Shown here: in pieces, positions 2,911 to 32,109 of the stretch
Position numbering within the stretch: the stretch's first letter is position 1
Layout: each line of letters begins with the position of its first letter
Source of the DNA: an uncultured Methylococcaceae bacterium
GTDB taxonomy: Bacteria > Pseudomonadota > Gammaproteobacteria > Methylococcales > Methylomonadaceae
Direction: 5' to 3'
Length of the DNA stretch: 32,109 bases
Assembly: GCA_903873165.1 (NCBI GenBank)
Contig: CAIQNQ010000102.1
Location: forward strand, 1 to 32,109
Translations under genes and position numbers: made by a program
Notes under the pieces: model-generated
Databases searched by the model: none
What the model was told of the DNA's origin: nothing
The model's input: the letters and a program-made list of their open reading frames with translations, nothing else

Positions 2911-5121
2911 TCACTTTAAGCCTTGTAAAGTCTTTAAGAAAACCTCAGACTCTTGATAACCAATCACCCGACTCGATTTAATTTCTTCAGCACTGCCATT
3001 AAAGAATAATATGGCTGGCGGGCCGATTAAATTAAATTTCTCTAATAATTTTTTATTTTCATCGGTATCTTCGGTCAGATCCACTTGTAAAAGCGCATAA
3101 TTCTTCAATGCCGCTTTAACTTTAGGGTCTTTAAAAGTATAAGCTTCCATTTCCTTACAAGAAATACACCAATCCGCATAATAATCTAACATGACAGGCT
3201 GATGATTTACACTGGCTTGCTTAAGCTTTTCCTCTAATGCACTGACCGTAGCCACACGTTCAAATACCAAACCTTCATCAGCTATTGCTTGAGTCGCTTT
3301 ACTGCCAGCAAGCCCCTTAAGAGGTTGTAATGGATTGGTATTACCTAAACTTACGCCTATGATTAAAATCAGCCCATAAGCTAACATGACCAATCCCAAG
3401 CCTTTCCATAATTTAAGCCATCCAGAACCTCCAGGAGGCAATGGATCCACTGCATTAAGATAGACTGCCGGCACAATTAAAAGCATTGCCCACAATAAAG
3501 TTGTTACTTCACCTGGCAATATTCTGCTGAGCATCCATACCGCAACACCTAACATTAATACGCCGAATATCGCTTTAGTAGAATTTAACCAACCCCCTGC
3601 TTTGGGTAATAATTTACCTGCTGAAAGACCCAAAAGTAATAACGGCATGCCCATGCCCATACCCATGGCAAACAATGCACCACCACCTAATAAAGCATCG
3701 CCAGTTTGACCAATAAATATAAGTGCGCCGGCTAAAGGAGCGGCAACGCAAGGGCCAACAATTAATGAAGAAAGCGAACCCATAATCGCCGCCCCCCAAA
3801 GCGAACCATCTTGATGCTTAAAACTAGAATTACTCAATTTTGTTTTTAAAGAATTAGGTAGTTCTAAATCATAAAACCCAAACATTGATAAAGACAACAA
3901 GACAAAAATGCTACTGAACAGAGCAACTATCCAAGGCTGTTGAAATGTCGCCTGTAAATTACCGCCAAATAAGGCCGCTAACACACCAAAAATAGTGTAA
4001 GTGACTGCAGAGGCAGTCACATAAGCTAATGACAACAAAAAGCTATGCAGCGTTGATATTTTGTTACCATGACCAACAATAATGCCCGATAAAATAGGAA
4101 TCATCGGGAATATACAAGGTGTTAAAGAAAGCAGTACGCCAAAACCATAGAAAGTGAGCAAAATAACGCCAAAACTATCGTTGTGTAATGAATTTACAAT
4201 CTGATCTTGTTCAGATATTTTTTCAGGATTAGCGACTGCTTCGGCTTGAATGGCACCTGCTGGTAAAACTAGTTCAGCGCTTTTTTTCATTAAAGGATAA
4301 CAAACGCCTCGTTCTGCACAACCTTGAAACTTTGCATCAAGGATTATATTTTGCGGATTGGTATCTTTTCGTATTAAAGGCAAATCGAAAGTTAATTCAT
4401 CATGAAAAATCTCAACCTTCCCAAATGCCTCATCTTCTTTAGGCGTGCCATGTGGAATGGAATAGGTGCCTAATTGCACGCTTTCTGAGTTTGTTAATGC
4501 TAAAGCGATTTTCTCACGGTATAAATAATAGCCTTTTGCGATTTTCCAATTAACCGTCACAGTATTTGCATCTTTTACTGAACTGAAAAATTGAAAAGCT
4601 TGATCAGGTAACAATAAATCATCTACATTTGATGCTTTAATAAATGGATTTACATTAGTCATAGGTTTTGCAAATGACTCTGTTACAAATGCTGACAAAT
4701 CTAAATCTAGCTGTTTTTTCTGAGGCGGATAACAAATACCTCGGTCAGCACAACCTCTATACTGAACTTGAAACTTAATAGATGACAATTTCTCAGCAAA
4801 TTCCAAAGAAACAGGCACAGTGACGGAGTTACGATAAATAACCACATCACCGAATGAATCATCATGCTTACTTTTTCCTTCAGGCAAAACCAAGGGAGCA
4901 ATTTTCAGCCCATCAGTTTTTGAAATAACTTGAATATAATCTCTATAAAGATAGTAACCCTCTACAACATCCCACGTTAATTCCAGTTTATCCGCTGAAA
5001 CTAATTTATAGTTTAACTTAAAGGCTTGATCTGCCGGTAAAGGCGACTCATCAGCGAAAACATTATTTGTAAAACCCAATAATGAAAAAATACAAAAAAT
5101 AATTATTTGCTTATATGACAT
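2911..5121 (-). CDS. dsbD: Thiol:disulfide interchange protein DsbD with two N-terminal alpha domains
   Basis: An inner-membrane protein that passes electrons from cytoplasmic thioredoxin to periplasmic thiol proteins such as DsbC. I start it at the ATG at 5121, which gives a clean signal peptide (MSYKQIIIFCIFSLLGFTNNVFADE). An in-frame ATG at 5193 adds 24 residues, and a weak promoter (TTCGCA-16-TAGAAT) lies inside that extension. Numbering from 5193, the order is as follows. DsbD-alpha copy 1 is residues about 54-167 with the pair in RGCADRGICYPP. Alpha copy 2 is about 195-311 with QGCAERGVCYPL. Then comes the membrane beta domain with Cys in TPCIFPMIPILSG and VGPCVAAPLAGAL. The C-terminal thioredoxin-like gamma domain has WCISC at 675-679. 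At 736 aa it is much longer than E. coli DsbD (about 565) because of the duplicated alpha domain. Confidence 0.93.
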   Translation of the reverse strand: MSYKQIIIFCIFSLLGFTNNVFADESPLPADQAFKLNYKLVSADKLELTWDVVEGYYLYRDYIQVISKTDGLKIAPLVLPEGKSKHDDSFGDVVIYRNSVTVPVSLEFAEKLSSIKFQVQYRGCADRGICYPPQKKQLDLDLSAFVTESFAKPMTNVNPFIKASNVDDLLLPDQAFQFFSSVKDANTVTVNWKIAKGYYLYREKIALALTNSESVQLGTYSIPHGTPKEDEAFGKVEIFHDELTFDLPLIRKDTNPQNIILDAKFQGCAERGVCYPLMKKSAELVLPAGAIQAEAVANPEKISEQDQIVNSLHNDSFGVILLTFYGFGVLLSLTPCIFPMIPILSGIIVGHGNKISTLHSFLLSLAYVTASAVTYTIFGVLAALFGGNLQATFQQPWIVALFSSIFVLLSLSMFGFYDLELPNSLKTKLSNSSFKHQDGSLWGAAIMGSLSSLIVGPCVAAPLAGALIFIGQTGDALLGGGALFAMGMGMGMPLLLLGLSAGKLLPKAGGWLNSTKAIFGVLMLGVAVWMLSRILPGEVTTLLWAMLLIVPAVYLNAVDPLPPGGSGWLKLWKGLGLVMLAYGLILIIGVSLGNTNPLQPLKGLAGSKATQAIADEGLVFERVATVSALEEKLKQASVNHQPVMLDYYADWCISCKEMEAYTFKDPKVKAALKNYALLQVDLTEDTDENKKLLEKFNLIGPPAILFFNGSAEEIKSSRVIGYQESEVFLKTLQGLK

Positions 5122-28520: not shown

Positions 28521-29525
28521 ATGAAATCACTCTTAGTCACCGGATGTGCCGGCTTTATTGGCAGTAATTTTGTCCCCTACTTTGTTGAGAAATACCCAGA
28601 GTATCAAATCATTAATCTGGATTTGCTCACTTACGCAGGTAACTTACAGAACTTAACAGAAATAGCGGGGCATGAACGCTACACGTTTGTCGAAGGTGAT
28701 ATCTGTGACCGGACTTTAGTCGAGCGGTTATTTGAGCTGCATGATATTCGTGGGGTGATTCATTTTGCGGCTGAAAGTCATGTGGATAATTCGATTAAGA
28801 ACCCCGGTGTGTTTGTGCAAACCAATGTGAATGGTACTTTTACGCTGATTGATGTGGCGTATAAATATTGGCTGGAAAAACCCTTCACCTTTAAAGCCGG
28901 ATATGAAGATTGTCGTTTTCATCATATCTCGACTGACGAAGTGTATGGCACTTTAGGGGAAACCGGCTTATTTACCGAAAGCACACCTTATGCGCCTAAC
29001 TCGCCTTATTCTGCCAGTAAAGCCGGCAGTGATATGATAGTGCGTAGTTATTATCACACCTATGGGATGAACACAGTCATTACTAATTGTTCTAATAATT
29101 ACGGCCCTAAACAACATAATGAGAAACTCATCCCCACCATCATCCGTAAGGCCATCGGCGGTGAGTTAATCCCTATTTATGGTGACGGTAAGAATATTCG
29201 CGACTGGTTGTATGTCTTGGATCATTGCAAAGGCATTGACTTGGTGTATCATGATGGCAAGGTCGGTGAAGTGTATAACATCGGCGGTCGCAATGAGCGC
29301 ACTAATAATTACATTGCCGATAAAGTGTGTGAGATTTTAGATGGTTTAAGACCCAAACCTGAAGGCAGCTATAAAGATCAACTTAACTTTGTTGAAGATA
29401 GAGCTGGACACGATAGACGTTACGCCATTGATGCCACTAAGATAGAAACAGAGCTGGGCTGGCAAGCGGATGAAAACTTTGAAACGGGTATTGTAAAGAC
29501 CATTGAATGGTATTTAAACCGCTGA
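28521..29525 (+). CDS. rfbB: dTDP-glucose 4,6-dehydratase
   Basis: Converts dTDP-glucose to dTDP-4-keto-6-deoxyglucose, step 2. An extended SDR: VTGCAGFIGSNFVPYF (NAD-binding GxxGxxG), HFAAESHVDNSIKNP, HHISTDEVYGTLGE (catalytic Thr-Asp-Glu), YSASKAGSDMIVRSYYHTYG (YxxxK), NCSNNYGPKQHNEKLIPT and DGKNIRDWLYVLDHCKGID. At 334 aa it is slightly shorter than E. coli RfbB (361). It is last in the A-C-D-B set. No glycosyltransferase or rhamnan assembly gene follows in the window, so the consumer of the nucleotide sugar lies elsewhere. Confidence 0.96.
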   Translation: MKSLLVTGCAGFIGSNFVPYFVEKYPEYQIINLDLLTYAGNLQNLTEIAGHERYTFVEGDICDRTLVERLFELHDIRGVIHFAAESHVDNSIKNPGVFVQTNVNGTFTLIDVAYKYWLEKPFTFKAGYEDCRFHHISTDEVYGTLGETGLFTESTPYAPNSPYSASKAGSDMIVRSYYHTYGMNTVITNCSNNYGPKQHNEKLIPTIIRKAIGGELIPIYGDGKNIRDWLYVLDHCKGIDLVYHDGKVGEVYNIGGRNERTNNYIADKVCEILDGLRPKPEGSYKDQLNFVEDRAGHDRRYAIDATKIETELGWQADENFETGIVKTIEWYLNR

Positions 29526-29681
29526 TTAGTTTTATAACTGACTAAGCAGGGTTTGTTGAATTTAACAAGTATGGTGTAATTGCCGACTAGTGATCTACCT
29601 CAGACCCTTGCCTGTTTGCTTAAAACCAGTTTGGGTATAAAGCGGCCGGGGTTTAATAGGGGCAAGATTAATATTGAGCTG

Positions 29682-29930
29682 CTATTTCCAAGGCTTCTCT
29701 TGTTTCATCCTAGGCTTCTCCTGCTTCATCCGAGGTTTCTCTTGTTTCATCCTAAGCTTCTCCTGTTCCATCCTAGGCTTCTCCTGCTTCATCCTAGGCT
29801 TCTCTTGTTTCATCCTAGGTTTCTCTTGTTCCATCCTAGGCTTCTCCTGTTTCATCCGAGGCTTCTCCTGTTTCATCCGAGGCTTCTCTTGGTTCATCCT
29901 AAGGTTTGGAAATTGAAAACCAAGCATCAT
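29682..29930 (-). CDS. Possible small repetitive protein, (MKQEKPR)n
   Basis: An 82-codon frame starting ATGATG, with a unique N terminus MMLGFQFPNLR, then heptapeptides MKQEKPR with variants MNQEKPR, MEQEKPR and MEQEKLR, ending PWK. The product would be strongly charged, lysine- and glutamate-rich and disordered or helical. It runs in the same direction as, and 55 bp downstream of, the secreted-protein gene ending at 29985, so it could be co-transcribed. There is no good Shine-Dalgarno. By my count 12 of 16 differences between units are synonymous in this frame, versus about 10 and 9 in the two open plus-strand frames, weak support for coding. It may equally be a non-coding minisatellite. 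Confidence 0.3.
   Translation of the reverse strand: MMLGFQFPNLRMNQEKPRMKQEKPRMKQEKPRMEQEKPRMKQEKPRMKQEKPRMEQEKLRMKQEKPRMKQEKPRMKQEKPWK
29692..29901. repeat. 21-bp tandem repeat, ten units (minisatellite)
   Basis: Ten uninterrupted 21-bp units start at 29692, 29713, 29734, 29755, 29776, 29797, 29818, 29839, 29860 and 29881. The plus-strand unit begins GGCTTCTC and ends TTCATCCTA or TTCATCCGA. Variable positions within the unit are 1, 3, 9, 12, 14 and 20. Read on the minus strand the unit encodes the heptapeptide MKQEKPR. Units differ by point changes only, with no length variation, indicating expansion by slippage or recombination followed by mild divergence. Confidence 0.97.
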
Positions 29931-29984
29931 TTAAAACAAGCTAAAACCCATATAATTCCAAGAAAAACAACGCTGTATAATCGA

Positions 29985-31079
29985 TCAACTTGCTTGCTTT
30001 GCCAGAATAATTCTCGCTAAATTACGTAAACCATCAGAGGATATTTCTAAACCAAACGGCGCACCTATTTTCTCAAGCTCATACATAACATCAGTCGCCG
30101 CAATAAAAGTAACATACTGCAAGGCTTTAACTTCAGGTAATTGATGAGACAATTCCTTTAACTGCGGCGCTAAACGTTCCCAAGTATCTGTAAAAAAAAC
30201 TCTAACAGGATCTTCGCCTTTAGAGTTATCCGTGCTTAACCCCGCTTGTAATGCTACCTTTGCCTCCACTAATGTTTCCGTTAAAGCCGCTTTTAAATCT
30301 GGGGTTTGCGCATCATCTACCGCTTTTTCTATAGACTGCGTTAAAAAAGTATTCCATTTATCCCATTGAGCTTGCCATTGTTTTTGCTCTACTTCAGTCA
30401 ATGGAGCCGCCACTTTTTTAGGATGAGCTTTAGAAGCAGTCGGCGCATTAAAAGCTAAACGCAACGCCACGGCATTTTCCTTAGCGGTTACCTCAGTAAA
30501 TCGTAAACTATTTAATAAAATTAACACCTCACCGACCTGCTCTTCAGGTAAATACTCATGCAAAGTTTTTTCAATATCGCCGCGTGAAGCATTTAAATCT
30601 AACTTAAGACCAGAGAGCGCAGGCGCTACAAACTGAGTAATCAAATCTTGGATTTTAGGATCATTCAACTGCTGACCTTGGAGATCAGAGACGTTAACTT
30701 GAGTAATCGGTAAACTTAATACGGTCTTATCTTTGTTAATGGTCGGTTTTTGCAGCGTCTCCAGATTCCCTTGCCAATCAATCAATTTAAGACACTTCCC
30801 CCCCAAACTTGCACCAATCCGCGCTTGGACATGATTCTGCAATTTAATCTGTTGCTGCTGCCCGGATACTTTTAAATCAGACAACTTTAAATAACTACAA
30901 CCCTTTTTATCACTCCAAACCTCAGCAGTTTGCCCCTCCCCTTTATACAACTCATTCAGCACTTCTTTTCTAATAAGATTGTAGTCTAGGTCAATAGGCA
31001 GGGTAATTTGTTTGGCAAAGCTAGAGGCGGAACACAGCATTAATGGGAGGATTAATGCAAAAGTTGTCGGTTTATTCAT
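29985..31079 (-). CDS. Secreted protein of unknown function
   Basis: A 364-aa protein I do not recognise. I start it at the ATG at 31079 (MNKPTTFALILPLMLCSASS), which has an AAGG Shine-Dalgarno 8 nt upstream. An in-frame ATG ten codons earlier spoils the signal peptide. The signal peptide likely ends at SFAKQ. The mature protein has two cysteines, in KKGCSYLKL and GGKCLKLIDW, probably a disulfide. The N-terminal half looks beta-rich (LKVSGQQQQIKLQNHVQARIG, LSLPITQVNVSDLQGQQL). A helical C-terminal half starts near VEQKQWQAQWDKWNTFL. It lies 55 bp downstream of the surface-protein gene on the same strand, suggesting an operon. Periplasmic location is inferred. Confidence 0.75.
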   Translation of the reverse strand: MNKPTTFALILPLMLCSASSFAKQITLPIDLDYNLIRKEVLNELYKGEGQTAEVWSDKKGCSYLKLSDLKVSGQQQQIKLQNHVQARIGASLGGKCLKLIDWQGNLETLQKPTINKDKTVLSLPITQVNVSDLQGQQLNDPKIQDLITQFVAPALSGLKLDLNASRGDIEKTLHEYLPEEQVGEVLILLNSLRFTEVTAKENAVALRLAFNAPTASKAHPKKVAAPLTEVEQKQWQAQWDKWNTFLTQSIEKAVDDAQTPDLKAALTETLVEAKVALQAGLSTDNSKGEDPVRVFFTDTWERLAPQLKELSHQLPEVKALQYVTFIAATDVMYELEKIGAPFGLEISSDGLRNLARIILAKQAS

Positions 31080-31134
31080 TACTTTACCTTGATTAAAATT
31101 GCTACGCATGGTGTTCTGCTAATCGCTTAACTAA

Positions 31135-32109
31135 TTACAAATAGCTTAACACGCCATGCGCCGAATCAAAATGGACATGACTAGGATTAATCCCCACTAA
31201 TTGAATTAACTCATCACCGGCACTGATAGTCGATATTTTTTCCGGCGTAGAATGCGAACCATCCCGGATTAATACTTTAGTATTTCCCCCTTCAACCCAC
31301 ATAGCAAATTGGCCTGCTTTATGGGTGGGTGCTAAGCCAAGCGCTTTTTCTACAGCGGCAATTTTAAGTGCCGAGGTATTATCTTTTGGGTCAAATGTTG
31401 CCATTCCCTTAGCATTAATTGCGGCAGTACCCGTTGTTGCACCGTTATGAGCTACAGTTGTTAACACTATATTCTTTCCAGACACATCACTATAACTAAT
31501 TGAATCTCCGACACTCCAACCCTTTATACTGTCATAATGACTTGCTGAAGGAGTACCATGCACATTAGCAGAAAAATCTAACTTCTCATGTTTTACAGAA
31601 GTCGCATCAATATTGATATTTAATGTCCCTGCAATCTTATTAAGTACATCTTTATTGGCTATAAACTGACTGGCGGTAATTGTTTTAGTGGGAGCCTTAG
31701 TTAAACTAATTGAACTGATATGACCATTACGCAACTGAGTATGCAAATCTGCTATATAAGTGTATACATTATCACCTGAATCCTTGACTGCTAAATGATA
31801 ATTCCCTATTTTATTTAAGACCATTGCATCACGACGGACTTGGGTTGCTGATACTTTTAAATCTACCAGTGTTTTATCGGTTTGAGTAATTGCTGTAATC
31901 TTAGCTAAAGTATCTTGTAATACATTTAAATTCGCAGCAATATTGGCGCCGGTATCTGATATCTTAATTGAAGATACATGCTGGGTATCAAGCAATACTT
32001 TCGTAACATTTGCCGCTAAGACTCCCGAAATATTCAGTTTGTACGCACCATTATTTAACAAGGCTAAGGCTTTCGTATCATTAACTAACTGGGTTGCTGT
32101 AATATTTAA
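31135..32109 (-). CDS. C-terminal part of a large repeat-rich, probably secreted surface protein
   Basis: The reading frame is open through the right window edge, so only the last 324 codons are seen. The edge begins LNITATQLVNDTKALALLNN. The sequence consists of degenerate units of roughly 80-90 residues combining strands and short helices. HVSSIKISDTGANIAANLNVLQ compares with HISSISLTKAPTKTITASQF, and LNITATQLVNDTKALALL with LKVSATQVRRDAMVLNKI. The sequence V.SI.ISDTGANIAANL is typical of long bacterial extracellular repeat proteins. The last 120 residues differ: a beta-rich module ending in WVEGGNTKVLIRDGS and AGDELIQLVGINPSHVHF. It resembles C-terminal target regions of type I secreted proteins. 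No RTX nonapeptides are visible. Adhesion is inferred only. Confidence 0.72.
   Translation of the reverse strand, partial: LNITATQLVNDTKALALLNNGAYKLNISGVLAANVTKVLLDTQHVSSIKISDTGANIAANLNVLQDTLAKITAITQTDKTLVDLKVSATQVRRDAMVLNKIGNYHLAVKDSGDNVYTYIADLHTQLRNGHISSISLTKAPTKTITASQFIANKDVLNKIAGTLNINIDATSVKHEKLDFSANVHGTPSASHYDSIKGWSVGDSISYSDVSGKNIVLTTVAHNGATTGTAAINAKGMATFDPKDNTSALKIAAVEKALGLAPTHKAGQFAMWVEGGNTKVLIRDGSHSTPEKISTISAGDELIQLVGINPSHVHFDSAHGVLSYL

Follow-up and report, generated by a model that had tools for sequence, protein, structure and literature searches.

The analysis of the window, a stretch of 32,109 nucleotides from the draft genome of an uncultured methanotroph, outlined a tandem array of 21-bp units that is probably a locally amplified, non-coding intergenic minisatellite, and one of a set of arrays with units of about two helical turns. 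The array is real and far beyond chance. Across the arrays analyzed, the period, the non-coding context, turnover at one site and palindromy in most of the arrays tested were all observed. The source genome is a 3.46-Mb draft in 298 contigs, and a PmoA/AMO match of 406 bits, against a cut-off of 27.5, indicates that the source organism is a methanotroph.

The window array and its site

TRF placed a repeat of 21-bp period and 10.2 copies at 29687-29901 (86% matches, 0% indels, score 311), which bears out the ten-copy array reported in a preliminary description of this DNA; an additional 63-bp row (score 346) is a duplicate call of the same array. The ten units depart from their consensus at 17 positions, which fall in six columns. 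The features of the region are as follows.

28521 to 29525, plus strand: dTDP-glucose 4,6-dehydratase gene (rmlB/rfbB), convergent left neighbour (TIGR01181, 456.9 bits against a cut-off of 365.1; PF16363)
29526 to 29984, no strand: convergent gap of 459 bp holding the array, between rmlB (plus) and the 374-aa gene (minus)
29580 to 30020, plus strand: open frame (HPRLLLF)n, 146 aa with a TTG start, spanning the array; a weak rival coding frame
29674 to 29916, plus strand: open frame of 80 aa with a TTG start
29682 to 29930, minus strand: open frame (MKQEKPR)n of 82 aa, started by ATG and closed by a stop codon, which we do not consider a gene
29687 to 29901, no strand: tandem array of a 21-bp unit in 10.2 copies, plus-strand consensus TCCTAGGCTTCTCCTGTTTCA, based on TRF, the unit listing and related arrays of the same genome
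29985 to 31109, minus strand: gene of 374 aa, right neighbour, with an N-terminus that resembles a signal peptide by eye

The right neighbour matched no Pfam, PHROGs or NCBIfam family and is present in 22 of the 35 genomes of the genus, its own included. With head-to-tail units inside the 10-100 bp range of intergenic minisatellites and a gap with at most weak coding support (not significant for the minus frame, weak for the plus frame), the array presents the defining features of such elements. A terminator was discarded, as no terminator-like sites were detected in 29400-30100 (0.5 expected). A megablast search of 28521-31109 against plasmids returned no match, and Rfam searches of the window and ten array loci, at gathering thresholds, identified only tRNA and t44, away from the arrays, so that no known RNA is assigned to them.

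The survey of orthologues encompassed 22 loci in 21 relatives, with at most 1.5 kb on each side and some shortened by contig ends. Among these, rmlB was found beside the orthologue of the right-hand gene only at locus L028 of genome G029, where the right-hand protein is 80% identical and rmlB, on the opposite strand, 87% identical. The L028 gap harbours a 42-bp array (7.5 copies), a 20-bp array (2.6 copies) and a 19-bp array (11.7 copies), and its best blastn matches to the window gap span 8-9 nt (E 1.9 or worse). In this single comparison, both species have arrays at the site, and one unit in G029 is likewise a multiple of 21 bp, but their sequence is different. Within L028:2590-3334, the 19-bp array (3113-3334) shows eleven units of CTCACCAAGAACGGATGTA after a palindrome of the CCTGAGCCCTGTCGAAGGG type, which gives the impression that one half of a REP-like repeat underwent tandem amplification.

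Coding potential and rival explanations

The preliminary description had suggested that the minus strand might encode a small, charged repeat protein, (MKQEKPR)n, and the layout that it gave is confirmed: the frame starts with ATG, remains open for 82 aa and lies in line with neighbouring minus-strand frames, at 29985-31109 and, further on, at 31135-32061. Its counts of silent differences between units (12 of 16, against about 10 and 9 in two plus-strand frames) were recovered in part, since the 12 and the 9 stand, the total amounts to 17 and the same-phase frame of the opposite strand has 11. When variable columns were moved to random columns of the same base (5000 trials, best of six frames), the silent excess yielded P 0.003 for the MKQEKPR frame alone, and was not significant once all six frames were allowed for (P 0.16). 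No Shine-Dalgarno-like sequence was apparent by eye upstream of the ATG, and no Pfam or NCBIfam family matched the frame; its two weak PHROGs matches (E 1.6e-4, unknown function; E 3.4e-4, virion structural protein) we read as compositional. Because the unit measures 21 bp, a stop-free frame anywhere in it stays open through the whole array, and plus-strand frames are open for the same reason. Searches with the array DNA identified three related intergenic arrays in the same genome (L067, L068 and L069) and no match in the other 60 genomes searched, while a pattern search returned no match in the other 34 genomes of the genus and, among named genomes, three single matches, in Patescibacteria, Mesobacillus and a deltaproteobacterial record. 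The MKQEKPR-homologous frame is not kept open in the related arrays, with 3, 1 and 3 stops in L067, L068 and L069, respectively, and arrays at other intergenic sites without an open frame were among the outcomes that the preliminary description had named as evidence against its protein. The frame is also absent from the orthologous gap of G029. The translated search that it had suggested, run over 311 genomes of the order, detected 37 places in 20 genomes, of which 23 contain stops and 13 besides the window are stop-free (23-44% identity); several of these lie within frames of 350-740 aa and resemble the charged repeat regions of ordinary proteins. Among the matches with stops, the one at G230 C1:2897382-2897594 has 10 TGA within 213 bp, roughly one every 21 bp, which suggests, from the match and not from the letters themselves, a non-coding array of 21-bp period in another genus. 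The stops in related arrays and the six-frame test led us to reject the (MKQEKPR)n protein, which we regard as highly improbable.

Two of the related arrays, L068 and L069, were further analyzed in flanked versions, L002 and L003, which constitute a paralogous pair. The arrays are identical at 195 of 211 positions, without indels, against 178 of 217 in the downstream flank (P 0.0014), and the array is therefore better kept than its surroundings. In the MKQEKPR frame, the 16 nucleotide changes of the pair alter the amino acid of 13 codons, a further point against that protein, and in the opposite-strand frame that of 6 codons (P 0.029, minimum over six frames). The latter bias would fit a repeat protein encoded on the opposite strand, as (HPRLLLF)n in the window and (HPRFRKLHPKPLLL)n in L002/L003. 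No stop interrupts its frame in the arrays of the window, L068 and L069, L002 and L003 carry two ATG-started frames of equal length (114 aa), and in the array part the 14 nucleotide changes distribute as 3/2/9 by codon position, with 5 of 13 changed codons altering the amino acid. We nonetheless consider this protein unlikely: the silent-site excess is weak and comes from a frame picked after the fact, in a test in which recurrent changes at one unit position are not independent, the frame has 4 stops in L067, starts with TTG in the window and yields no Pfam match up to E 0.1, and its outer part shows no conservation at the protein level (in the tail, 11 of the 16 changed codons alter the amino acid). 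The same pair could also be taken to indicate that a mobile element of the MITE or REP kind carries the array, given that L002 and L003 have the array, a leader (58 of 64 positions identical) and the downstream flank in common, with a sharp upstream border (54 of 155 columns identical), and that CTGTTYGCTTA-like words adjoin arrays in 4 of their 8 occurrences in the sample of this genome. This is, in our estimation, quite unlikely. No MITE ends in the form of inverted repeats of at least 14 nt were found in 29526-29984, where three short ones (10-13 nt) are present; the shared leader word was picked post hoc and rejected as a weak element signature, with about one shared 11-mer expected among such flanks by our own estimate; and the L002/L003 homology continues into the adjacent gene, a pattern like that of a segmental duplication. 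The gene downstream of the L002 array (L002:1917-2546, 209 aa) is intact and its copy after the L003 array (from about 1940) is disrupted, indicating that the array and the gene start were duplicated and that one gene copy then decayed.

Arrays of similar period in the genome and the order

The reading of the window array as a non-coding minisatellite belonging to a set draws on a scan of stretches from five genomes of the genus, in which contigs were picked by number and not at random. The sample of the source genome comprised 81 pieces including the window, and 764 kb after 18 all-N pieces were dropped; about 71 kb in four pieces had been targeted for the window array and its relatives, leaving an untargeted remainder of 693 kb. 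In this remainder, a lag scan (lags 9-63, 150-bp windows) revealed that six of nine periodic regions classed as non-coding peak at lag 21 or 42 (L054, L061, L110, L168 at 41-42, L176 and L181), the other three having periods of 10 bp (L104, and L187, which overlaps a long ORF by 44%) and 6 bp (L072). L054 and L176 were counted as non-coding despite TTG and ATG frames of 135 and 113 aa, because the array itself generates those frames, and L110, of 21-bp period apart from a single 1-bp insertion, has stop codons in every frame of both strands. Periodic coding regions show other periods in the same scan (24, 27, 36, 45 and 57). Extrapolating from the six arrays in 693 kb, about 30 such arrays would be expected per genome. 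L072:13857-14100 consists of about forty copies of a 6-bp CGGTGA-like unit that is open in four of the six frames.

The lag scan also identified a 43-bp array in G029 (L073), in addition to the 42-bp and 19-bp arrays of its targeted locus, and 42-bp and 20-bp arrays in one piece of G006 (L139), and no non-coding periodic region in G018 (400 kb) or G021 (about 91 kb without N), both of the same genus. The 20-bp array of G006 is a sibling of the 21-bp arrays; at L139:9500-9870, eighteen 20-bp units present AAGTTT...AAACTT arms and strongly diverged middles. For G018, TRF listed other repeats, mostly of long period or two copies. Among them, a region of about 14 kb, L114:169-14232, has numerous repeats of long period (67-418 bp) that lie for the most part outside long ORFs; their consensus units have a common core around GTTAAGCGCCTTGGCTTATTGATC. 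According to the ORF lists, the gaps that hold arrays are convergent (window, L110), divergent (L002, L176) and tandem (L061, L054, L004), which makes a pure terminator or promoter role unlikely for the class. The class was assembled post hoc, from about 23% of one genome and parts of four others.

Palindromy was assessed in 13 arrays, some of them related copies, by comparing each unit profile with its own shuffled columns. In 12 of the 13 arrays the units are palindromic at the basic period (P 0.04 or lower), encompassing all six untargeted arrays of lag 21 or 42 and the related arrays L067-L069 (P 0.007-0.04 at period 21), and the sole exception is the window array, which shows no significant palindromy (P 0.30). 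Similarly, L068, one of the related arrays (z -5.2), and three arrays that differ in sequence (L110, z -8.2; L080, -8.1; L061, -4.8) fold better than shuffles, and the window array folds no better than shuffles on either strand (z +0.22 and -0.68). The window array, being neither significantly palindromic nor better-folding, is hence not a typical member of the class. The structural RNA that the preliminary description had entertained was rejected for the window array on these near-zero scores, and the structural DNA element, its other suggestion, is the reading that survives. In the sample of the source genome, seven of eight palindromic-hexamer triplets, targeted loci included, are spaced at 21, 42 or 63 bp. 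Non-palindromic words gave 62 triplets with the same peak, and most hexamers that occur three in a row with a spacing of 21 or 42 bp are not palindromes; the count is therefore not specific to palindromic words.

Array L061 contains ten units at exactly 21 bp, in which GTTAAC has 93% pairwise identity and the spacers 33% (27% expected from composition). Recent duplication alone is insufficient for this pattern; a constraint on palindrome and spacing would give it, and a heptad frame of the form VNxxxxx, which stays open over 82 aa in this array, would account for it in part. GTTAAC was picked because of L061 for a spacing test over 311 genomes, with triplets at spacings of 11-41 bp and at least 37 loci compiled. 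The triplet was found in 31 of the 311 genomes, and 13 of the 14 listed loci that are evenly spaced (within 1 bp) lie at 20-22 bp, with spacings of 20, alternating 20/21, 21 and 22 bp, the remaining one lying at 33 bp; without three 21-bp loci seen previously, the figure is 10 of the 11 listed. The scrambled word GTTACA formed triplets in 44 of the 311 genomes, with one of 21 evenly spaced compiled loci at 22 bp and many at 11 bp (Fisher P 1.3e-7; 3.8e-6 with homologous copies collapsed). Five GTTAAC loci (G072, G149, G000 C117, G182 and G184) are spaced at 20, 20/21 or 22 bp, distances that cannot correspond to heptads, and a codon-based cause therefore cannot explain all loci; the individual 21-bp loci of G127-G129 could be coding heptads. 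For the LuxR-type gene beside the L061 array, G013 gave no match and G029 only one of 24% identity, on a different contig, so the 21-bp GTTAAC arrays of these three genomes are probably not at one orthologous site.

Two other palindromes were analyzed in the same manner. CCTAGG triplets occur in 5 of the 311 genomes (21/21 in the window, 22/20 in G025, 35/35 in G063, 40/40 in G094 and 12/30 in G098), and one of the three evenly spaced loci, the window itself, lies at 21 bp, the others at 35 and 40 bp. CAATTG, searched in the genus only, was found in 10 of 35 genomes at 13 loci, six of them evenly spaced, of which two fall at 20-22 bp (21/21 in G032, possibly coding, and 21/20 in G018) and the others at 18, 30, 30 and 41 bp. 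The clustering at 20-22 bp is evident for GTTAAC, and not clearly so for CCTAGG and CAATTG (three of nine together). GTTACA recurs at 11 bp in G063, G048, G076, G141, G148 and G280, and at 11/10/11 bp in G112, G140 and G020, in a manner that resembles CarH/LitR-type operators with 11-bp repeats. G063 carries two different 35-bp tandem repeats (C120 and C219), one with GTTACA and the other with CCTAGG.

A probable minisatellite and its known counterparts

The explanation that we favour for the window array, local amplification of a non-coding minisatellite, would involve slippage or unequal recombination at the site. The array would be one of a set found in this genome, and paralleled in some relatives, with units close to two B-DNA turns in length (20-22 bp, in many cases alternating to 40-43 bp). 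The period might be held at the DNA level, with units on the same face of the helix jointly bound, folded or tolerated; a candidate binder is a dimeric DNA-binding or nucleoid protein, and hairpins may serve instead in the palindromic arrays. The window array itself looks like a recent, homogeneous, non-palindromic member of the set without a necessary function of its own. A broader proposal, which we advance tentatively and regard as possible rather than probable, is that the chromosomes of some methanotrophs of the order carry intergenic arrays with short palindromes every two helical turns (20-22 bp), in which palindrome and phase would be kept while the spacers and, between species, the whole sequence of the site are replaced. 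Such arrays could constitute a sequence-flexible, phase-constrained DNA scaffold, for instance for a dimeric nucleoid or regulatory protein, of which the window array would be a young member.

These results call for caution in predicting small heptad-repeat proteins from 21-bp arrays, where the period may come from the helix and not from the codon. If the phase constraint were genome-wide, the arrays would provide natural multi-site platforms on which sequence evolves freely while spacing is held, and one could then test for a chromosomal protein that recognizes phase and palindromy instead of one motif.

Intergenic minisatellites are a known kind of element, of which helical phasing with locus-specific palindromes would be a variant. 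REP repeats are, like the methanotroph arrays, extragenic and palindromic, with a size of 20-40 bp, but they are dispersed copies of one family, whereas the methanotroph arrays are tandem and locus-specific in sequence. Searches of the open-access literature returned no description of phased intergenic arrays of 20-22 bp in methanotrophs.

The closest parallels come from three published reports, compared here on the excerpts available of each. BrickBuilt, a minisatellite/MITE of Porphyromonas gingivalis, has 23-nt units and is always intergenic, with 19 copies in one genome (PMC4596501). It shares with the methanotroph arrays a head-to-tail, intergenic unit of about two turns and a limited host range, but the excerpt describes leader and tail units, inverted-repeat ends and one common unit sequence (PMC4596501); the window gap showed no ends of this kind, and the methanotroph arrays differ from one another in unit sequence. 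The tandem repeats of Borgs, in the excerpted account, arise independently and evolve fast, and about half are intergenic; one intergenic example, with 20-nt units and a 21-nt one, is absent from the closest Borg, and the authors note that small ORFs made only of repeats may be mispredicted genes or de novo repeat peptides (PMC9879509). Borg repeats are described there as perfect, A-enriched and extrachromosomal, with 14-38% of intergenic unit lengths divisible by three (PMC9879509), whereas the methanotroph arrays are imperfect, chromosomal, mostly of 20-22 or 40-43 bp and mostly palindromic. The TAACTGA repeats of the Beggiatoaceae, as far as the excerpt covers them, likewise form many intergenic short-unit arrays in a gammaproteobacterial lineage, and three of their 7-mers amount to 21 bp (PMC4679880). 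They consist, however, of one fixed 7-mer located mostly just upstream of start codons (PMC4679880), in contrast with the 21-bp units of the methanotroph arrays, which are array-specific and lie in convergent, divergent and tandem gaps.
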